From positions 1 through 64,000 of the forward strand of contig DYNP01000006.1 in the NCBI GenBank assembly GCA_020721005.1: a stretch of 64,000 nucleotides of DNA, in the 5' to 3' direction. Origin of the DNA: Thiomargarita sp. (lineage in GTDB: Bacteria; Pseudomonadota; Gammaproteobacteria; Beggiatoales; Beggiatoaceae). The notes under the pieces are model-generated. The model made no database searches, was not told the DNA's origin, and saw nothing but the letters and a program-made list of their open reading frames with translations. Of the stretch, positions 628-11,111 are shown piece by piece (position 1 is the first letter of the stretch; the number at the start of each line of letters is the position of its first letter). The translations under genes and the position numbers were made by a program.

Positions 628-2229
628 TTAAAGGTCATGTCCGGAGTAGCTGCCATTGATGGATTTGTTGCAGACGGGAAAGTCTGGAACGATGTTTTCC
701 CTGATTAAAAATTCCAAGGCTGGCCAGTTTAGCCAGCTGGGATCACGAGGAAAAAATCGATTGAGAGTGCCGTCCGTGGAAAATCGCACATAGGTGATGA
801 TCTCGCCGCGCCAACCTTCAACAATGCCTATTCCTGAAGCTTCCATAGTCACGGGATTCCATTCTCTCGCAATTTTCCCAGCCGGAATTTGAGTCAGTAA
901 TTGATACATCAGGTGCAAACTGATGTGAATTTCATCCAATCGCACTTGTAGCCGAGTTTCTACATCTCCGGTTTTATAGAGCGGCACTTCAAATAAAAAT
1001 TCTGTGTAGGGATAGTAAGGTGAGTCCCGACGCACATCATAATTACAGCCACTGGCGCGTCCCACATAACCCAAACAGCCAAATTGACGAGCACGTTCAC
1101 AACTTAAAATCCCAGTGGTGGCAAAACGATCTTCGAGTCCAGAATGTCGTTCTAAAATGGCTTCCAATTCATGCAATTCGGTTTGTAACTTGGTCCCACT
1201 TTCTATCAATTCTGCCAATTGTTGGGGATCAAGGTCAATTTTCACACCTCCAGGAATAATCACGTCCATCATCAAACGGTGTCCAAAACAGCGTTGGCTG
1301 AGCCGTTGCCATCGTTCTCGCAGTCGACTGAATTGTGCAAATCCAAATCCAAAAGCCACATCATTGCAGAGGGCACCAATGTCTCCCAGGTGATTGGCGA
1401 CTCGTTCTCGTTCCAACAAAATGGCACGTAGCCAAGCGGATCGGTCTGGAATTGTGCAACGCGCGGCTCGTTCCATCGCCATGCAAGCTGCCCAGGTGTG
1501 CGCAACGGTGCTGTCTCCAGAGACCCGTCCCGCCAAGCGAGCTAATTCCCAAACAGTACGTCCCTCAGCGGTTTTTTCAATGCCTTTGTGGACATAGCCC
1601 AAGTGCATTTCTAAATTGAGCACTTGTTCCCCCACTGCTTGGAAACGAAAGTGTCCAGGTTCAATAATTCCGGCATGCACAGGTCCCACGGGGACTTCAT
1701 AAACTCCTTCTCCCTTGGCTTGTAAAAAGGGGTAATCTGAGTCAGCAGGTGTGAGTTCTTGAAAAATAGTGTTTGGATTGAATGACTTACGTAGGGGGTA
1801 ATCTTGAGCGCTCCAAGCTTGATGACGAGTCCAGCGCCGGGTGTCGGGATGACCTTTAAAGGTGATGCCCCAGAGGTCTTGGATGTGTCGTTCAGCACGA
1901 TTGGCCGCGGGATAAATGGCGGTTTGAGAGTCGATAATTGGGACAGTGAGTTCGGTGAGTATGATGAGGTAATCGCCTTGTTTTTCATAGCAGGCATTGA
2001 TTAGGAAGTGTTCACTGGAATATTGTTCAGTTTGTTCCGCCCACAGAGCGCACCATCGACAGTTAAGTCGTTGTAAAGTGCTAATGCAACGGATAAAATC
2101 TTCAACTTCCAGGTGTAAGACATGGGCGGGAGGTAAAATCAAGGGGGAGCTGCCGAGAATTAAAACGTGTTCGTTCTCAAGACGGGTAAGCAATTCGGGC
2201 AGCCAAGTGAAAGTGGGTTTGGGTTTCAT
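628..2229 (-). CDS. HyfG/HycE-like large subunit (NuoC-NuoD fusion) lacking Ni-Fe ligands
   Basis: This 533-residue protein has a NuoC-like N-terminal part (to about residue 150) fused to a NuoD/hydrogenase large-subunit part (EVPVGPVHAGIIEPGHFRF near 180). It would form the cytoplasmic catalytic arm of a membrane complex. The motif that carries the first cysteine pair in group 4 hydrogenases, RVCGICxxAH, reads RVSGDSTVAH here: both cysteines are serine (about residues 237 and 240). The C-terminus, NKSINGSYSGHDL, resembles NuoD and has no DPCxxC motif and no cleavable tail. It should therefore not bind Ni-Fe or turn over H2. The ATG at 2229 overlaps the hyfF-like stop as ATGA, which favours it over the GTG at 2241. 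It may belong to the energy-converting hydrogenase-related (Ehr) group. Confidence 0.88.
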   Translation of the reverse strand: MKPKPTFTWLPELLTRLENEHVLILGSSPLILPPAHVLHLEVEDFIRCISTLQRLNCRWCALWAEQTEQYSSEHFLINACYEKQGDYLIILTELTVPIIDSQTAIYPAANRAERHIQDLWGITFKGHPDTRRWTRHQAWSAQDYPLRKSFNPNTIFQELTPADSDYPFLQAKGEGVYEVPVGPVHAGIIEPGHFRFQAVGEQVLNLEMHLGYVHKGIEKTAEGRTVWELARLAGRVSGDSTVAHTWAACMAMERAARCTIPDRSAWLRAILLERERVANHLGDIGALCNDVAFGFGFAQFSRLRERWQRLSQRCFGHRLMMDVIIPGGVKIDLDPQQLAELIESGTKLQTELHELEAILERHSGLEDRFATTGILSCERARQFGCLGYVGRASGCNYDVRRDSPYYPYTEFLFEVPLYKTGDVETRLQVRLDEIHISLHLMYQLLTQIPAGKIAREWNPVTMEASGIGIVEGWRGEIITYVRFSTDGTLNRFFPRDPSWLNWPALEFLIRENIVPDFPVCNKSINGSYSGHDL

Positions 2230-3707
2230 AGCACGCTCCACACCGAGGTCCCAGTGATCAATAAGGTGGCTTCGTCAAACCAGTTGTTGAGGAAGAGAGG
2301 AATGGAGAGTCCCAACCATAAGACGAGTCCGAGTTGGACGAGGACTGGAAGCATGTTGGCTGGGACCGGGTGTTGTCCCGGGGGAGCTTCGCCATAGACC
2401 ATGGGTTGGACGTGTTTAAAGAGTCCGGCAAAAGCAATTCCCAATCCCAGCAAAAGGGGTAAGGTGAGCCAGGGTCCGGTTTTCATGAGGGCGGTGATGA
2501 GTAGAAATTCACTCATGAAGATGCCGAAGGGGGGGAAGCCGGCGATGGCGACGGTGCCGATGAGCAATCCCCAACCTACTGGGGGTTGAGTGTGAATGAG
2601 ACCACGAATTTTGTCAATGCTTTGGGTGCCGGCAATTTGGGCTGCATGGCCAACGGTGATGAAAATGGCGGATTTAGTCAGGGAGTGGACGGTCATGTGC
2701 AGTAGGGCACCAAAGGTGGCCAGGGGGTGGCCAAGTCCAAAGGCCAGGGTCATGAGTCCCATGTGTTCGATGGAGGAGTAGCTGAACAGGCGTTTGATGT
2801 CTTTTTGGCGGTGTAGGAAGAAGCTAGCCACGCTGAAAGAAAGTAGTCCAAAGCCCATCATGAGATAGCCGGCGAGATTGTGGTCAAGGGCGCCGTCGAC
2901 CAGGACTTTGATCCTGACGAGAGCATAGAGACCGACATTCAAGAGAAGTCCAGAGAGCACGGCTGACATGGGGGTGGGACCTTCGGAGTGGGCGTCAGGT
3001 AGCCAGTTGTGAAGTGGGACGAGACCGACTTTGGTGCCATAGCCAACGAGGATGAAGACAAAGGCTATGCTCATGACGGTATCTTCTAGTTGATGGGCAT
3101 GGGCATGTAGAACGCTCCACAAGAGGGCATTTTCGTGTTGGGGAATGACTTGTTCAGCGGCGAAATAGAGCAGTACGGTGCCGAATAGGGCTTGGGCGAT
3201 GCCAACTCCACAGAGGATGAAATATTTCCAGGCGGCTTCTATGGACTCTGGAGTGCGATATAGGCTGACGAGTAGGACGGTGGCCAGGGTGGCGGCTTCC
3301 ATGGCTACCCAGAGTAAACCGAGGTTGTTGGTGGTGAGGGCGAGCAGCATGGAGAATAGGAAAGCTTGGTACATGGTGTGATAGATGCGCATGCGTTTGG
3401 GATTGACTCGTCCGGTGGTCAATTCGTGAGCCATGTAGGGTCTTGAGAAGATGGCGGTGGTCATGCCAATGAAGGTGGTGAGCACGATGAGATAGACGTT
3501 GAAGGCGTCGATGTAAAAGAGTCGATCGTGGGCCAGTTGAGGTCCTTGGTTGAGAATTTGAAGGGCCAGTTGGAGACTGGCTAGCCAGGTGAGGGCGGTA
3601 AATAGGCAGTTGAGCCAACCGGTATGGCGCCAGTGTCCTATCAGGGCAAAGATAAGGGCACTGAGGAGTGGGATGAGTAGGGTGAGGTCAAGGGCAGTGA
3701 GAGGCAT
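2226..3707 (-). CDS. HyfF-like proton-pumping membrane subunit (NuoN/NuoL family)
   Basis: This 493-residue, highly hydrophobic protein has the proton-conducting antiporter-like core: conserved motifs include GYGTKVGLVPLHNWLPDAHS, with its central lysine and histidine, and a following broken-helix region with LFSYSSIEHMGL. It resembles HyfF/HycC and NuoN/L. In the assembled complex it would move ions across the inner membrane. It sits 11 bases after hyfE and overlaps the hyfG-like start by four bases, so the genes are very likely co-transcribed and the hyfG-like gene translationally coupled. The length is normal for the family. Confidence 0.88.
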   Translation of the reverse strand: MPLTALDLTLLIPLLSALIFALIGHWRHTGWLNCLFTALTWLASLQLALQILNQGPQLAHDRLFYIDAFNVYLIVLTTFIGMTTAIFSRPYMAHELTTGRVNPKRMRIYHTMYQAFLFSMLLALTTNNLGLLWVAMEAATLATVLLVSLYRTPESIEAAWKYFILCGVGIAQALFGTVLLYFAAEQVIPQHENALLWSVLHAHAHQLEDTVMSIAFVFILVGYGTKVGLVPLHNWLPDAHSEGPTPMSAVLSGLLLNVGLYALVRIKVLVDGALDHNLAGYLMMGFGLLSFSVASFFLHRQKDIKRLFSYSSIEHMGLMTLAFGLGHPLATFGALLHMTVHSLTKSAIFITVGHAAQIAGTQSIDKIRGLIHTQPPVGWGLLIGTVAIAGFPPFGIFMSEFLLITALMKTGPWLTLPLLLGLGIAFAGLFKHVQPMVYGEAPPGQHPVPANMLPVLVQLGLVLWLGLSIPLFLNNWFDEATLLITGTSVWSVL

Positions 3708-3718
3708 GGGGAATCCGG

Positions 3719-4408
3719 TTAGTTTCTGACAGTGGGTTCGTTTTCAGAGAGGCGATTCATGTGGTCAACATTTAGGGTGTCGATGTTTTCGCGGATGTGG
3801 AGGAAGAAGACGCCAAATAATACGCTGGCTACTAGGATGTCAAAGGCAATTCCCAGTTCGACAATCATGGGCATGCCGTGGGTGGAGACCAGAGCGGCAA
3901 AGAAGAGACCGTTTTCCATGGCCATGAAGCCTACGACTTGGCTGACTGCTTGTCGATGAGAGATGATGAGTAGGAGAGAGAGTAGGACATTGGCAAGACT
4001 GATGGCGATGATGTTGCGGGTGGCTAGGGTGGAAAGGCGCTCCAGGGGTAGGGTGACATGGTAGCAGAAGATGACTAAGGCAATGCCACCGAGGAGAATG
4101 AGAGTGCCATTGGTGAGGGTTTCGGTTTCATGGTGAAGTTTGAGTTTAAGTACCTGATGGCGGAGCATCCAGGGGATAAGCCAGGCTTTGAGAATGAGGG
4201 TGAGTAAGGCAGAGATGTAGAGGTGAGGTTGGTGGGAGGTGAAGGCAACAAGTGCTGCTGTAAGGGCTAGCAGAGTACCTTGCCAAGCAAAGGTGTTGAT
4301 GAGGTTCAACAGTCGTGGCTGGGAAAGTAGGGCGAAAGAGGTGAACAGGACTAAGGCAGACAGGACCAGAATGGCTTGTTCATAGTGAGTGAGATTATTA
4401 AGTATCAT
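3719..4408 (-). CDS. HyfE-like membrane subunit (NuoK-related)
   Basis: This 229-residue protein has about six predicted membrane segments and a NuoK-like stretch (AMENGLFFAALVSTHGMPMI) with the buried glutamate typical of this subunit. It matches HyfE, the hydrogenase-4 component, in length and layout. Its role would be a membrane link between the proton-pumping subunit and the connecting subunit. The gene lies 49 bases downstream of the hyfC-like gene and 11 bases upstream of the hyfF-like gene, all on the minus strand. The C-terminal tail after the last helix is soluble and polar. Confidence 0.83.
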   Translation of the reverse strand: MILNNLTHYEQAILVLSALVLFTSFALLSQPRLLNLINTFAWQGTLLALTAALVAFTSHQPHLYISALLTLILKAWLIPWMLRHQVLKLKLHHETETLTNGTLILLGGIALVIFCYHVTLPLERLSTLATRNIIAISLANVLLSLLLIISHRQAVSQVVGFMAMENGLFFAALVSTHGMPMIVELGIAFDILVASVLFGVFFLHIRENIDTLNVDHMNRLSENEPTVRN

Positions 4409-4457: not shown

Positions 4458-5426
4458 TCATTTGGTCAATGGTCCCACTTCCAAAATGACATGACTTAGC
4501 ATGCCAAGTAGGCTTAAGAGGAGGGCAAAACTGAGGTAATCGGGGGCTTTAAAGAGACGCAATTTGGCCAGAAGGGTTTCGGAGAGGGCTAGGAAAGTGC
4601 CCAGGATGAAAAGTTTGATGAGAATGCTAATTGTTCCCCAAAATAGAGCGGTGGGATGCGAGGTGGTGGCAATGCCCCAGGGTATGAAAAGGTTGGCGAT
4701 GAGTACTCCATAGATCATGAGTTTGATTTGCCCCGCCCATTCGATAAGGGCTAAGTGGCGGCCACTGTATTCTAGGATCATGGCTTCGTGGACCATGGTC
4801 AGTTCCAAGTGGGTGCTTGGGTTGTCGATGGGAATGCGGCCGGTTTCCGCAATGGCGATCATCATGAGTCCCAAAATTGCGAAGATGAATGAGGGGCGCA
4901 ATACAAAACCTTGGGATAGGATGAAGTCAATTGCGGTGGATAGATTGGTGGTTGAGGCGGTCATGGCCAGAGTGAAAACGGCCATGAGCATGGCGGGTTC
5001 TGTAAGGGAGGCTAGGGTCATTTCGCGGGAGGCGCCCATTCCGCCAAAGGCAGTGCCGATGTCCAAGGCGGCCAGGGCGGTGAAAAAGCGGGTGAGGGCT
5101 AAGAAACCGACCAATACAATGACATCGGCAATGGAGGCTGTGGGTAAATCTGTGGCAATGAGGGGCAAAATGCCGGCTGCCAACACAGTTGTTCCCAAAA
5201 TGATATAGGGAGTAACTCGAAAAATCCAGGAGGCTTGTCCGGCGATAACAGCTTCTTTGTGAAAGAGTTTATGTAGGTCTCGATAAGGTTGTCGGAGGGG
5301 GGGAGCGCTGCGGTTTTGTAGCCAGCATTTGTTGGCTTTGATCCAACCGGTTAGGAGGGGGGCAATGGCTACAAACAGTAGCGTCTGTATGGCAGCCAAT
5401 AGCCAGCTGTTTAAATTATGGTCCAT
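4458..5426 (-). CDS. HyfC/HycD-like membrane subunit (NuoH family)
   Basis: The 322-residue protein is a NuoH/HycD-type connecting subunit with about eight predicted helices. Recognisable motifs are PYRDLHKLFHKE in the first cytoplasmic loop, GGMGASREM and ETGRIPIDNPSTHLELTMVHEAM. In related complexes these loops form part of the quinone or ferredoxin-coupled proton channel. The start at 5426 gives the normal N-terminus with a long first helix. This is the first gene of the visible run. No hyfB-like gene precedes it: upstream lies only noncoding sequence and the repeat element at 5541-5863. Confidence 0.88.
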   Translation of the reverse strand: MDHNLNSWLLAAIQTLLFVAIAPLLTGWIKANKCWLQNRSAPPLRQPYRDLHKLFHKEAVIAGQASWIFRVTPYIILGTTVLAAGILPLIATDLPTASIADVIVLVGFLALTRFFTALAALDIGTAFGGMGASREMTLASLTEPAMLMAVFTLAMTASTTNLSTAIDFILSQGFVLRPSFIFAILGLMMIAIAETGRIPIDNPSTHLELTMVHEAMILEYSGRHLALIEWAGQIKLMIYGVLIANLFIPWGIATTSHPTALFWGTISILIKLFILGTFLALSETLLAKLRLFKAPDYLSFALLLSLLGMLSHVILEVGPLTK

Positions 5427-6059: not shown

Positions 6060-6551
6060 TCAGCAAGTTCTGGTTTTGGCTTCCCAAGCAGTTACCTCCG
6101 GATGGGCACATAAATCTTGTACCCATGCAAAGGCAGCATTTAAATGGCGTTCTGCTGCTGCACTCAGAGGTGCTCCCAGTTCAAAAGACTCGCCCCGAAT
6201 GCTGAGCAGAAAGGCTGGAGGGGCAGGGGTGTGAAAGGTGTGTTCGTAAATATGGAGTATCGTACTGGGGTGCATAGCATGGGTGGTGTAGGCCAGGGCT
6301 TGAGTGGCTTGCAGACGACTAAAACCAAAGGGAGGGGCTTGGGAAATACTGGCGTCAATGAATAGGGCCAATTGATTGCCGGTTAAATCCAAAGCGTGTT
6401 CCACTTGGAGTTGGAAGTCTTCAACAAACTTGACAAGACTCTGGCCATCACAGTATTCTAGCAGTTGATGTAATAGGATGGGGCCTAAGGCATCGTCGCC
6501 TCGACTGGGGTTACCATATCCCAAAATGACTAAGGGGGGAAAGTTATTCAT
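6060..6551 (-). CDS. [NiFe] hydrogenase maturation protease (HyaD/HycI/HoxW family, M52)
   Basis: This 163-residue protein starts with the family signature GYGNPSRGDDALGP (residues 11-24), followed by an Asp strand (LFIDASIS) and a conserved His region (THAMHPSTIL). These are the expected nickel-sensing residues of endopeptidases that trim the C-terminus of hydrogenase large subunits. The ATG at 6551 overlaps the stop of the DUF4160 gene as ATGA, which fixes the start. A longer frame to 6638 exists but adds sequence inside the upstream gene. The nearby HyfG-like protein has no cleavable tail, so the true substrate must lie outside the window. A soluble bidirectional HoxH-type enzyme is a reasonable guess. 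Confidence 0.85.
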   Translation of the reverse strand: MNNFPPLVILGYGNPSRGDDALGPILLHQLLEYCDGQSLVKFVEDFQLQVEHALDLTGNQLALFIDASISQAPPFGFSRLQATQALAYTTHAMHPSTILHIYEHTFHTPAPPAFLLSIRGESFELGAPLSAAAERHLNAAFAWVQDLCAHPEVTAWEAKTRTC

Positions 6552-6826
6552 TCTAAAGGTTTTATTTTCAGTAAAGGGGCGTTTTGTTGAGCCAGTTCCC
6601 AATTCTTCCAAAGGGCAGTCTGGTATTGAGAGGCCCATTCTATGACCAAACCACGGACTCTAGGAGACAGTTGACCTCTTAAAATTTCCAGTGTCTCAAT
6701 GGCTAACACGGCTTTTTGTTTCTCATAGTGGACATAAAAATGAGGAGGCGGGGCGGGATCATGATAATACATAGAGATAATAATACCAAAAAACCGACTT
6801 AAGGTAATCGGCATTTTGTGCTCCAC
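6548..6826 (-). CDS. DUF4160 family protein
   Basis: This protein of about 92 residues matches the DUF4160 pattern: FFGIIISMYYHDPAPPPHFYVHY, shown here only in part (GIIISMYYHD, PPPHFYVHYE), then a LRGQLSPR segment and a C-terminal helix. The function of the family is unknown; it often pairs with DUF2442 in toxin-antitoxin-like loci. Here the partner is instead a hydrogenase maturation protease, with a four-base ATGA overlap. A strong AGGAGG lies five bases before a GTG at 6826, which I take as the start; the first ATG is at 6814 and is too far from it. Confidence 0.8.
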   Translation of the reverse strand: MEHKMPITLSRFFGIIISMYYHDPAPPPHFYVHYEKQKAVLAIETLEILRGQLSPRVRGLVIEWASQYQTALWKNWELAQQNAPLLKIKPLE

Positions 6827-6959: not shown

Positions 6960-9683
6960 ATGATTCATTTTTCACCTATTCGCGCCCTGAAATTTCATCA
7001 GCGTATCCGCAGTAAGCTTACCCTTGGGTTGCTGGTGGTCACCTTGATTCCGGCGATCAGTCTTGGTATTTATGTCCGCTATAAGTCCATTGAAGTGCTA
7101 CAAGCTCAGGAGTTTATCCGCCAATTACAGATGGTCAGCAGTTTCCAGAATTGGATGAAATCGTTTTTAACTCTGGCTCAACATGACGTCCTCTATTTAA
7201 GCGAAAATCAATCCCTCAAACATTATTTGCAACTTCGCCAAAGTAAATCTCCAGATGCCGATCAAGCTTTAGAGAGTGTACAAAATGATTGGTTATCCTT
7301 TTCTGCACATCGTGGTATCTATTGTCAAATTAGATACTTAGATGAGACGGGGCAAGAACAAGTGCGCATTGACTCTGATGGTACTGCAGTTAAGAAAATC
7401 ACTGGTTCACAGCTACAAAACAAGGCCGACCGTTATTACTTTACAGAAACCATGCAGCTCTTTGCCCAAGACGTTTATACCTCCATCTTAGATCTCAATC
7501 GGGAACATGGCAAAATTGAAGTCCCCCACAAACCTGTGATTCGTTATGCCGTCAACGTCTATTATCCCAATGGAGACAAAGCTGGCATTGTCATTACCAA
7601 CCTGGATGCCCAAACCCTGCTTCAACAATTATCCGGGCTTATGTTGGTGGATGAAAAAGGCTATTATTTAGTACACCCCGATCCCGATAAAACTTGGGGT
7701 GCTCCTTGGGACTTAAATACCGGTCATACTTTATACCGAGACTATCCCCATTTAGCCAAACGTTTACTCACCTTGACCGATGGGCACATTGCCACCCCCT
7801 CTGTGCTACTTACTTTCCAACGCATTGTCATTCCCAACATGGGCTATTGGACTCTCATTGCTCAACAGCCTATGCAGGAATTAACTCAACAACTCTCTGA
7901 TTTCAAAATCATTGTTTCCCTAATTTTGGTCATCACCCTCACTATTGCCCTACTGGTAGGGAGTTCTATCAACTATTTGATCACCCAACCTATTGAACAA
8001 CTGATGGCCGTGGTCAAACGAGTGCAAGCTGGAGAACGAGAAGTGCGCGTTGAAGTGATACGCAATGATGAATTAGGCGTATTGGATCAAGGCTTCAATG
8101 CCATGTTAGAAGCCATCAAAGCTTCAGAAGCCGCCTTGCAACGAGCTAAACAGGAAGCAGAAGCTGCTAACTTAGCCAAAAGTCGCTTCTTGGCCAACAT
8201 GAGCCACGAACTGCGCACCCCTTTAAATGCAATCATCGGTTATGGCGAAATGCTACAAGAAGAAATTGCTGATTTAGGGGAGATGGAACTGAGCGAAGAT
8301 CTGGAAAAAATTCACCTGGCTGGCAAACATTTATTGGCTATTATCAATGACATTTTAGACATTTCCAAAATTGAAGCTGGAAAAATGGAACTGTACACAG
8401 AAACTTTTTTATTGCCCAACATGATCAATGACATAGTACACACAGTCCAACCCCTGTTTGCCAAAAATCAAGACCGTTTGGACGTTTATTACCCCCCAGA
8501 TCTTGGAGAAATGCACGCTGACCTGACCAAAATCCGACAAATCATCCTCAATTTGCTCAACAATGCCTCCAAATTCACTGAACAAGAAGGCACTGTGGCT
8601 CTAAAAGTCAGCCGGACCCGTGATGAACAGGACGAAGACTGGATTATTTTCGAAGTGCGCGACAATGGCATTGGCATGGATGAAACCCAAAAACAACATC
8701 TGTTTGAAGTATTTAAACAAGCTGACGACTCGTCCACCCGCAAATTTGGTGGCATGGGCTTGGGACTGGCTATTACCAAACACTTTGTACACATGATGGG
8801 CGGAGAAATTAAAGTGGACAGCCAATTGGGGCAAGGCAGTCTCTTCACCATTCGGTTACCTGCCAAAGTTCGAGTGCGGCAAATCCTCAACATGCCCTGC
8901 ACCTTTGAACCCATTCTCGAAGAAGGAGGCATCGTCTTGGCCATTGACGACGATCCCGCAGTCAGGACCTTGTTACAACGCTTCTTAAGTAAATTGGGCT
9001 ATCAGGTCGAAGTGGCAGAAAGTGGAGAAGAGGGACTGCGCCTGGCCAAAAAATTATTTCCAGATATCATCATCTTAGATGTCATGATGCCCAAAATGGA
9101 TGGTTGGGAAGTCCTCAGCCATTTGCGAGCTGACCATGAACTGGCTAATATTCCTGTCATAGTCCTGTCCATGATAGAAGACAAAAATATTGGCTATTCT
9201 CTGGGCGCCACCGATTACCTGGTCAAACCCATCAGTCGCGAACAACTTTCCAATGCTCTGCAAAAATATCACTTCTCAAAAACCGAAAAATCGCCCCTGA
9301 TCATGATTGTTGACGACGATTTAGCCACGCGGGACATGATCGCCAAAATGCTCCGTAAAGCCGGCTGGAGAATTTGTAAAGCAGAAGGGGCTCAAGTGGC
9401 TTTGGACTATCTACAACGAAGATCGGTAGACCTGATTATCTCAGATTTACAAATGCCTGGCCTAGATGGTTTTCAATTCACAGAACAACTGCATAAGCAT
9501 CATTCCAATATTCCCGTGATTATCATCACCGCTGAAGATTTAATTGTGGAACAACGGTTGCGCCTAAAAGCCGCTCAAGTTGCCAACATTTATCAAAAAG
9601 GTGCTTACACTCGAGAAACCCTGATTAAGGAAATTGAACAATTGCTCACTAAACCTCACCACTGTCCCATCGATTCCCATTAA
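6960..9683 (+). CDS. Hybrid sensor histidine kinase: Cache, HAMP, HisKA, HATPase, two REC
   Basis: This 907-residue inner-membrane protein has a helix at about 20-42, a periplasmic region of about 270 residues with a double-Cache look, a second helix near 315-337 and a HAMP region to about 395. The HisKA box [18 protein letters not shown] carries the phosphorylated His near 417. The ATPase domain shows the N box (NLLNNASKF) and G boxes ([14 protein letters not shown]). Two receiver domains follow (about 658-775 and 780-895), each with an acidic pair (IDDDP, VDDDL) and a phospho-Asp ([22 protein letters not shown]). No output domain is present. The GT2 gene starts three bases after the stop, so the two are co-transcribed. 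The ligand cannot be inferred. Confidence 0.93.
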
Positions 9684-9686
9684 ATT

Positions 9687-11111
9687 ATGACCAGTCCTCT
9701 TCCGACTATTCTCATCATCATTGTCACTTGGAACAAAAAACAATACGTTTTAGACCTGTTGGCTTCTGTCAGTTATTTACATTATCCCACTGAATTACTT
9801 TCCATTGTCGTCGTTGACAATGCCAGTGAAGATGGTACTGTAGAAGCCATTGCCGCTGCCTATCCCACGGTGCAAATACTTAAAAATTCAGAAAATTTAG
9901 GAGGGACCGGAGGATTCAATACCGGATTACAATGGGCCTTTGCTCAACCCGAATCCCACTGCCAATATCTTTGGTTATTGGACAATGATGTGGTGGTGCA
10001 TGAAAAGGCACTGTGGGAATTGGTCAACATTTTGGAACAACATCCCGATATTGCAGTGGCTGGCTCCACCATGATGCAATTAGATTATCCTTGGCGAATC
10101 AATGAGATGGGCGCTTTTATCAATTTGGGACTTGGGAAATTGGTCTTGAATCGACATCAGGAAAATATCTATGCTTGGCAGGGCCAACCCTTGGCTCAAT
10201 TATTGAAACAACCTATTGATTTAACTCAACTGTTGATTCATTGTCAAACCTATATGGATGTGGATTATGTGGCTGCTGCCTCCTTGCTGATTCGAGCCCC
10301 AATAGCTCGGCAGGCGGGACTGTGGCGAGATTATTTTATCCATTTTGACGATGTAGAATGGTGTTTACGCATTCGAGACCTGGGTTATCGCGTGGTAGCG
10401 GTGGCCAATTCTCTAATTTGGCACCTGTCGGCTGCAGCCAAAGTTCCCACTTGGATTTTATACTATGACAATCGTAACTTGTTGGATTTATTGGCTACTC
10501 ATCGGGTCCCACTTCCCACTTTAAATCGATTGATTCGGCATATTTATTTGAAAGCCGGTTACTATTGTTTGCTGGGAAAAACTGATTTGGCACAGTTGCA
10601 TTATCAAGCTGTGCATGATTTTTTGATCGGGCGCTGGGGTCGGCAACCTCTACAATTGGATCATCAGTATCAAAAACCTGCCAGTTTATTAACTTTGCTG
10701 TTAAATTCCAAAGTAAAACGCATATTGATTGCCTGGACCTTACATTTACAAGCCATGCAATTGCAAACCCCATTGGTACAAGCCAAATTGCAACGTCCTG
10801 ATTTACAAATTCATTTTTTAACTTTACCAGGGGGACTGCCCATTTTTCAATTTCCTCAAGCCCATTTTATTTCCCTGCCCAAAAATGCCTTATTGCGTTG
10901 GTGGACTTATTGGAAATTGCGCGGTGATTACGATCTGGTGATTCAGTCCGATTATCAAGCTTCCATAGGCTTGGCTTGGTTAAAGGGCGATTTGATTTAT
11001 GCCAATGATGAAGGTTTTTGTCATCGTTCTCCACCGACTTGGCAACAGGTGGTTAAAGCGGGATGGATATATTGGAAAAGTTTATTTCAATCTCCTTATG
11101 CAACCAAATAA
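9687..11111 (+). CDS. Family 2 glycosyltransferase with an unassigned C-terminal region
   Basis: The first 300 or so residues of this 474-residue protein are a GT-A type GT2 domain: the nucleotide strand VTWNKKQYVLDLL, VVVDNASEDGT, the metal-binding LLDNDVVV and the acceptor/catalytic region FDDVEWCLRIRDLGYRV. Such enzymes transfer a sugar from a nucleotide donor to a lipid-linked or surface glycan. The remaining 170 residues match no domain I recognise. The start lies three bases after the kinase stop and the end overlaps the YfiH gene by 14 bases, so the three form an operon. Donor and acceptor are unknown; a rhamnosyltransferase role is possible given rmlBACD in the window. Confidence 0.85.
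   Translation: MTSPLPTILIIIVTWNKKQYVLDLLASVSYLHYPTELLSIVVVDNASEDGTVEAIAAAYPTVQILKNSENLGGTGGFNTGLQWAFAQPESHCQYLWLLDNDVVVHEKALWELVNILEQHPDIAVAGSTMMQLDYPWRINEMGAFINLGLGKLVLNRHQENIYAWQGQPLAQLLKQPIDLTQLLIHCQTYMDVDYVAAASLLIRAPIARQAGLWRDYFIHFDDVEWCLRIRDLGYRVVAVANSLIWHLSAAAKVPTWILYYDNRNLLDLLATHRVPLPTLNRLIRHIYLKAGYYCLLGKTDLAQLHYQAVHDFLIGRWGRQPLQLDHQYQKPASLLTLLLNSKVKRILIAWTLHLQAMQLQTPLVQAKLQRPDLQIHFLTLPGGLPIFQFPQAHFISLPKNALLRWWTYWKLRGDYDLVIQSDYQASIGLAWLKGDLIYANDEGFCHRSPPTWQQVVKAGWIYWKSLFQSPYATK

Follow-up and report, generated by a model that had tools for sequence, protein, structure and literature searches.

What could a hydrogenase-like membrane complex do if its large subunit carries no ligands for nickel? 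The question is raised by the beginning of a 64,000-nucleotide stretch of DNA from Thiomargarita sp. (hereafter the window), where a gene for a large subunit resembling those of group 4 hydrogenases is accompanied by genes for HyfF-, HyfE- and HyfC-like membrane proteins.

The large-subunit gene encodes 537 amino acids from a GTG start at position 2241; an ATG at position 2229, the fifth codon of this reading frame, overlaps the stop of the F gene by four bases (ATGA). The protein carries the 30 kDa and 49 kDa complex I domains, with a weak Ni-hydrogenase match just below the Pfam cut-off, and its top phmmer match in the PDB is E. coli HycE (7z0s_E, E 1.7e-63). In that alignment RVCGIC of HycE lies over RVSGDS and DPCYSC over NGSYSG, the alignment stopping inside the second motif. 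Aligning the protein by MAFFT with the NuoD of the same genome and the E. coli proteins HycE and HyfG placed HycE C241, C244, C531 and C534 in the columns of S241, S244, S531 and G534 of the window protein. The serines that the preliminary description had noticed at the L1 nickel-ligand positions, in RVSGDSTVAH instead of RVCGICxxAH, do match the ligand-cysteine columns, and the third ligand column is serine too. The C-terminal DPCxxC had been reported missing, and indeed NGSYSG occupies its columns. The cysteine-to-serine pattern is not exact, as had been claimed: the fourth ligand is glycine, and A, T, C, V and N also occur across the family. The protein ends in DFPVCNKSINGSYSGHDL before the stop, with 0 residues past the HycE R537 column, beyond which E. 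coli HycE and HyfG have 32; the group 4a C-terminal extension is thus absent. An AF2 model of the subunit (mean pLDDT 81.9, pTM 0.87) has pLDDT below 50 at residues 175-215 and 532-537, regions that take in part of the active-site area, and Foldseek with this model again returned HycE first (7z0s_E, E 2.0e-29). Neither of the two CxxC Ni-Fe ligand motifs expected of [NiFe] group 4 is present. By homology, a Ni-Fe site is impossible in this large subunit, and the S/S/S/G reading of the four ligand columns supports the earlier view of a catalytic arm unable to hold such a centre.

Table 1 Genes and motifs of the Ni-free complex in the window and on other contigs of the same genome.
Feature	Location	Strand	Basis or remarks
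hyfG/ehrL-like large subunit (NuoC+NuoD type)	628..2241	-	S241, S244, S531, G534; without cleavable C-terminal tail
RVSGDS codons, first ligand motif, residues 239-244	1510..1527	-	alignment
NGSYSG codons, second ligand motif, residues 529-534	640..657	-	alignment
hyfF-like antiporter-type membrane subunit	2226..3707	-	NCBIfam NF005045 (hydrogenase 4 subunit F), 765.5 bits, cut-off 543; Proton_antipo_M
hyfE-like membrane subunit	3719..4408	-	NF008556 (hydrogenase 4 membrane subunit), E 6.4e-21, below curated cut-off; operon position in relatives
hyfC/NuoH-like membrane subunit	4458..5426	-	Pfam NADHdh, E 1.9e-35
HyfI-like small subunit	L014 8646-9167, contig C105		PF01058, sequence; not at contig end by coordinates
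HyfB-like subunit	L017 7279-9291, contig C20		PF00361, sequence; not at contig end by coordinates

Judged from sequence comparison, the Ni-free pattern marks one large clade and not Thiomargarita alone. Among 57 related genomes searched, 28 matched at E 1e-20, of which 14, the Thiomargarita genome included, exceeded 360 bits and the rest were NuoD-like or MBS-like; identity to the window protein is 42-66% in 12 relatives. Scanning named-species genomes gave at least 583 pattern matches, at least 575 of them encoding a relative, and the best 80 were kept (the named loci). According to database records, the carriers among these best 80 of at least 575 include Gamma- and Betaproteobacteria, Azospirillum, Nitrospirae, Mariprofundus, Desulfobacterales and others. 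The ligand columns were read in 126 homologues whose score against the window protein exceeds 250 bits, one of them a four-cysteine protein; 125 of the 126 have at most one of the four ligand cysteines. Across the four columns the reading was SSSG in 72, STSG in 33 and CSAG in 4, the rest being other readings, including one protein cut short at the second motif and the four-cysteine one. Taken singly, the columns hold S 112, A 7, C 5 and V 2 (first), S 84, T 36, C 3 and A 3 (second), S 111, A 9, N 4, C 1 and one gap (third), and G 123, A 1, C 1 and one gap (fourth). Since SSSG or STSG stands at these columns in 105 of the 126, the window motif is not a chance reading; the search for the motif in relatives, which had been recommended, thus revealed Ser-type ligand columns common to a large family.

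Eighty columns of the large subunit are conserved at 97% or more over 127 rows. D243 is found in 99% of the 127 rows and N525 and K526 in 100% of 126, and all three differ in HycE, HyfG and NuoD; N529 and G534 are also family-conserved and unlike HycE and HyfG. Two quick trees, one of which took in 60 of 90 thinned members, recovered the Ni-free BCEFGI proteins as a single clade with 100% SH-aLRT, separate from E. coli-type group 4a, which makes the ligand loss old and shared. A long-branched row from locus L099 was placed within this clade; long branches meet in both trees, so that the deeper branching order is unsure. The earlier suggestion of selected loss rather than decay therefore stands in part: the conserved columns argue against decay, but the loss is clade-wide and old and did not happen in this organism.

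A Ni-bearing relative was found in a betaproteobacterial MAG (L121:1-4305), where E, F, G and HyfI-like genes lie upstream of, and in tandem with, a Ni-free BCEFGI operon. The upstream G carries RICGVC and ends in NKSFELCYSCTDR before the stop, which amounts to four cysteines, an Ehr-like NKSF and no tail; the HyfI-like gene opens with a HyfH/HycF-related stretch. This G, the closest Ni-bearing relative among the sequences examined, branches outside the Ni-free BCEFGI clade, beside the group formed by L227-L230, in an open fork. The tree suggests that nickel was lost on the stem of the Ni-free clade. N525-K526 is also present in the four-cysteine L121 protein and is thus not by itself a mark of nickel loss; only D243 goes with it. 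When compared with 397 genomes of the phylum, the L121 protein matched in 73, and 30 loci taken from these comprised 25 Ni-free ones (window included) and 5 of E. coli type with the tail; no second L121-type protein was found among those 30 loci. A second cluster upstream of BCEFGI occurs in L094 and L099 too, and the second-cluster G of L099 is Ni-free. Loci L227-L230 form a separate Ni-free group, 31-34% identical to the window protein, with motifs such as RFSGAAAFAH and ATWGLSVAENDR; in L229 a HyfH/HycF-like stretch lies next to G. In 14 of the searched genomes we also observed a NuoD-like protein (L032, L033, L035-L045, L047) with RICVPDP and a C-terminal SLDACPPEVDR-like stretch, leaving one cysteine per pair. 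The best PDB match of the L038 protein is Pyrococcus 6u8y_L (E 1.5e-108), part of what we take to be the membrane-bound sulfane reductase, MBS. Might the RICVPDP-type proteins then belong to a bacterial MBS-like complex?

The F, E and C genes lie upstream of G on the minus strand. That they are intact and in operon order had been described correctly, but HyfB and HyfI, encoded on other contigs, were missing from that picture. The window starts at the first base of its contig (C117), so nothing is readable past that end, and no small-subunit-like reading frame was found between base 1 and 628. In the whole genome (4.05 Mb, 133 contigs, 99.7% complete), profile searches gave four PF01058 and five PF00361 matches, among them the HyfI- and HyfB-like genes of Table 1. 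Read by eye, the remaining genes of these families belong to Nuo complex I, a HupSL-type uptake hydrogenase and a Hox-type bidirectional hydrogenase, the five PF00361 genes being three of Nuo type, HyfB and HyfF. All six subunits B, C, E, F, G and I are therefore present, at three places. As in Ehr complexes, there are membrane subunits of the Mrp/NuoL type and the NuoH type (F and C in the window, B on contig C20) and a small subunit with the proximal cluster cysteines (contig C105). The hyfE-like protein gave no Pfam match at E 0.001.

Three further genes near these loci were considered. In the window, a homologue of hydrogenase maturation proteases (TIGR00072; 6060-6638) lies just upstream of the Ni-free operon, and a small DUF4160/DhiT toxin-like protein (6548-6826, below the NCBIfam cut-off) overlaps the start of the protease reading frame. 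We rejected the protease as a part of the complex: among the relatives' loci compared it is operon-adjacent only in the window, and cysteine-motif Hup and Hox hydrogenases are encoded on other contigs. The HyfI gene follows FhcD- and FhcC-like formyltransferase genes, with one small reading frame between (L014:6517-9167; FhcD by PF02741, FhcC by eye). Co-occurrence was counted in 36 genomes with the complex versus 240 without, one genome belonging to another group (G167) having been moved from the 37 matching to the 240, and FTR_C was commoner with the complex (11/36 versus 26/240, p 0.003). A link to H4MPT was nonetheless dropped: the other HyfI loci (L171-L195, about 1.5 kb on each side) gave no Fhc match, and the adjacency is therefore treated as chance.

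How constant is the set of six genes? With the Thiomargarita subunits as tblastn queries, the full B-C-E-F-G-I order was found in 64 of the 80 named loci (the best 80 of at least 575), of which 60 have just BCEFGI and 4 also carry extra pieces or another cluster. Of the remaining 16 in this set of the best 80 of at least 575, most are cut by the end of the stretch; at the tblastn sensitivity used, I was not found in L049, nor B or C in L072. Among 35 loci of a class sample, 27 are complete, three are cut by the contig end (L199, L201, L224), L198 stops after G, and the remaining four (L227-L230) have the order C-(E)-F-G-I-B. BCEFGI is thus the usual order across phyla. In the window's own family the operon is scattered as G alone, FG, EFG or CEFG. 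Orthologous HyfI is nevertheless found in 20 of the 21 genomes with G; 19 of these have it at full length, whereas in G026 it is split over two frames. The twenty-first, G094, matched just part of the query, at 38%, much as the second matches of other genomes do. The split HyfI of G026 (L190/L192) reflects a frameshift or a sequencing error.

Clustering of reading frames from the best 80 of at least 575 loci gave no widely recurring seventh gene, the largest other cluster being a SulP-family transporter in 13 loci; this result leaves aside two bigger clusters (20 and 18 loci) judged by eye to be high-GC artefacts, gene contexts here resting on longest-frame calls that are unreliable in high-GC loci. 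In L076 (Methylocaldum) a SulP gene (8245-9879) lies within the operon, separating F from G and reading in the same direction. E. coli HyfA, HyfH, HycB and HycF found a tblastn match in 2 of the 80 named loci (the best 80 of at least 575) and in 1 of the 35 class-sample loci. These matches lie in the extra clusters upstream of BCEFGI in L121 and L099 and in the other-group locus L229, and none lies within a BCEFGI cluster. Across the loci compared, no donor gene is consistently linked to the operon.

The residues that would matter for function are conserved. C58, C61, C125 and C155 of HyfI (C44, C47, C111 and C141 of E. coli HyfI) are kept in at least 95% of 131 rows, a set in which some genomes appear twice. 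Glu, Lys and His residues of HyfB (90 rows) and HyfF (113 rows), which we assume to be those usually tied to pumping, are conserved at 95% or more, and the window's hyfF-like protein keeps E137, K226, K345 and E400 in the family alignment. In HyfC, H206 and H213 are family-conserved, where E. coli HyfC has Glu and Gln. With subunits that look intact and these pump-type residues in place, the ion-pumping membrane module proposed at the outset appears sound. The columns of Thermus Nqo4 H38 and Y87, presumably the quinone-site residues of complex I in T. thermophilus, hold I193 and G242 in the window protein (PDB phmmer alignment). The loss of these two residues means that they lend a quinone acceptor no support. 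By homology, then, the complex should hold neither Ni-Fe nor, on the basis of H38 and Y87, a complex I-style quinone, and one Fe-S cluster is expected.

We favour, with a probability of roughly 55%, an Ehr-type six-subunit BCEFGI complex that would act as a redox-driven ion pump with a rebuilt acceptor site and whose genes lie at three places. Its probable membership of Ehr rests on the published definition of these complexes. We infer that the acceptor site has been rebuilt and that the drive may be redox or the proton-motive force. A soluble donor would dock on HyfI, because no HyfH/HyfA-type ferredoxin subunit comes with the standard operon. The one cluster would then reduce a low-molecular acceptor (a quinone or some other small compound) in the G/C/I cavity, at a site that may be rebuilt around D243, which is found in nearly all Ni-free members, and N525-K526; the acceptor reaction would power export of H+ or Na+ via B and F. 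Against a redox pump, a single Fe-S cluster makes a short electron path.

The same machine might run in reverse: in lithotrophs and methanotrophs, quinol would then reduce ferredoxin or another low-potential carrier at the expense of the proton-motive force. This would suit the many methane, sulfur and iron oxidisers that database records give as carriers among the best 80 of at least 575 loci, the many carriers in the family that shares an identical protein with a Mariprofundus MAG, and the intact pump residues. However, Paraburkholderia and Azospirillum have the complex as well, it lacks the quinone residues of complex I and the standard operon has no ferredoxin-type subunit, and we regard reverse operation as unlikely, if still worth entertaining. 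Very improbable is a formate hydrogenlyase or hydrogenase still working with other ligands. Formate or H2 roles for such hyf clusters are discussed in the accessible parts of PMC2621215, PMC2864759 and PMC5596200, yet both the four-cysteine site and the C-terminal tail are absent. No FdhA was found in the Thiomargarita genome at E 1e-120 (4 of 14 candidates scored), and FdhA above the curated cut-off occurs in 14/36 genomes with the complex versus 57/240 without (p 0.065), so weak a link that we set it aside. That the gene is the decaying remnant of a hydrogenase in this genome is scarcely credible: the operon is broken up, with B and I on other contigs and a similar dispersal in several relatives, but the frames are intact, conservation is strong, and G and I are both retained in the genomes where they are dispersed.

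A different role, in inorganic carbon metabolism, would have ion flow coupled to CO2 hydration or bicarbonate accumulation, as in cyanobacterial NDH-1MS or DAB, with the former nickel site as a pocket for CO2 or an anion. In its favour, a SulP-family gene lies beside or inside the operon in 16 of the 80 named loci (the best 80 of at least 575): nine Methylococcales-type loci and L050, L070, L081, L096, L105, L114 and L126. It is on the same strand upstream of hyfB in 14, upstream on the opposite strand in L070, and inside the operon in L076; its identity was established by Pfam PF00916 in six proteins tested. On the downstream side, with flanks totalling 493 kb, SulP was found in 0 of the 67 loci, of the best 80 of at least 575, whose flank there is 1.5 kb or longer. 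The SulP proteins are of two unlike types, 23% identical, and the linkage changed at least 6 times on the tree of loci, with 57 loci scorable. PF00916 is also the commonest Pfam family, with 14 members, among 86 upstream proteins, which represent 86 of 109 upstream reading frames (two with a later start), the rest, including the second SulP of L078, having been dropped by eye. Between SulP and hyfB, L096 has a homologue of gamma-carbonic anhydrases of the Cam/CcmM kind, with gamma-carbonic anhydrases as its best PDB matches. Its stretches GVVIH and AHRSIVHGP align with these enzymes, and we take them to hold the zinc histidines. A partial gamma-carbonic anhydrase homologue lies 4.65 kb upstream in L081, and a beta-carbonic anhydrase adjoins the hyf cluster of Acidithiobacillus caldus, according to the accessible part of PMC3826726. 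Against this role, SulP is near the operon in 0 of the 35 class-sample loci, of whose 31 BCEFGI-type members 27 have at least 1.5 kb upstream, which rules it out as a universal partner; it may also carry sulfate or molybdate. RuBisCO (PF00016, E 1e-20, counting RuBisCO-like proteins) shows no enrichment in genomes with the complex (21/36 versus 127/240, p 0.59), and a link to it was likewise discarded; RuBisCO-family genes are present in the Thiomargarita genome. The four Fe-S cysteines are conserved, and a hydratase would not need them. By eye, no SulP or carbonic anhydrase gene was recognised among the genes read near the window operon, no beta-carbonic anhydrase was found in its genome at E 1e-5, and a scan of the 80 named loci (the best 80 of at least 575) and the 35 class-sample loci with a beta-carbonic anhydrase motif found none. 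On balance we consider the role in inorganic carbon handling doubtful. It is more doubtful still that methanotrophs and several lithotrophs possess a further, so far unrecognised complex I-like inorganic-carbon machine, working with SulP and carbonic anhydrases and with electron flow via the one Fe-S cluster as an option. In the titles and abstract openings searched, which lay outside subscription journals, a recurrent SulP-Ehr link was not described.

Our favoured reading, an Ehr-type ion pump, can be set beside the systems it resembles. E. coli hydrogenases 3 and 4 (HycE, HyfG; group 4a) give the best sequence and fold match and share the subunit types B, C, E, F, G and I; unlike them, the window complex lacks the nickel ligands, the C-terminal tail and the subunits of the HyfA/HyfH kind. 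Respiratory complex I (NuoB, CD, H and K/N/M/L) has the core fold and the pump residues in common with it, and no nickel, but the operon has no NADH module, as judged from the lack of a recurring seventh gene, and D243 and N525-K526 replace H38 and Y87. The Pyrococcus 6u8y complex is, we assume, another Ni-free group 4 hydrogenase relative with an ion pump, and is like the window complex in being Ni-free, whereas its relatives in bacteria fall in a different clade, with one cysteine left in each pair. NDH-1MS has complex I-like membrane parts. It and DAB2 (accessible part of PMC13144422) share such parts with the window complex, and the Ni-free operon sometimes lies beside SulP and carbonic anhydrase genes, but clustering of its reading frames gave no widely recurring seventh gene, which a zinc CO2-hydrating subunit such as DabA or CupA might have supplied, and the Fe-S small subunit is kept.

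The complex fits Ehr, which as described in the accessible literature has a group 4-like large subunit without Ni-Fe ligands and complex I/Mrp-like membrane subunits; unlike Ehr, the Thiomargarita complex has its genes at three places. Ehr complexes without the Ni-Fe residues and with no proven function are described in the available text of PMC6349859 and PMC10284858, and for Sulfobacillus in that of PMC4378227; the latter two cite Coppi 2005 and Marreiros 2013 on Ehr complexes. Similarly, the catalytic subunits encoded by the hyfBCEFGI cluster of A. ferrooxidans are non-hydrogenase ones according to HydDB (PMC7735108), and six-gene clusters are reported in Acidithiobacillus, Nitrospira and Cupriavidus (PMC2621215, PMC5596200 and PMC2864759), the last of these papers naming the six hyf genes of Cupriavidus H16. 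Going by these sources as far as available, the Ni-free complex belongs to a known, widespread and already described family, and a Ni-free Ehr is not new.

The complex is widespread, with at least 575 stretches encoding a relative in one genome scan. Several papers interpret clusters of this kind as encoding hydrogenase 4 or formate hydrogenlyase, so that H2 or formate metabolism may be wrongly inferred for their carriers. The residue set found here (S/S/S/G, D243 and no tail) is a simple test that separates the Ni-free complex from hydrogenases, and the SulP and carbonic anhydrase neighbours, together with the tandem relative in L121, are concrete handles on the function of Ehr.
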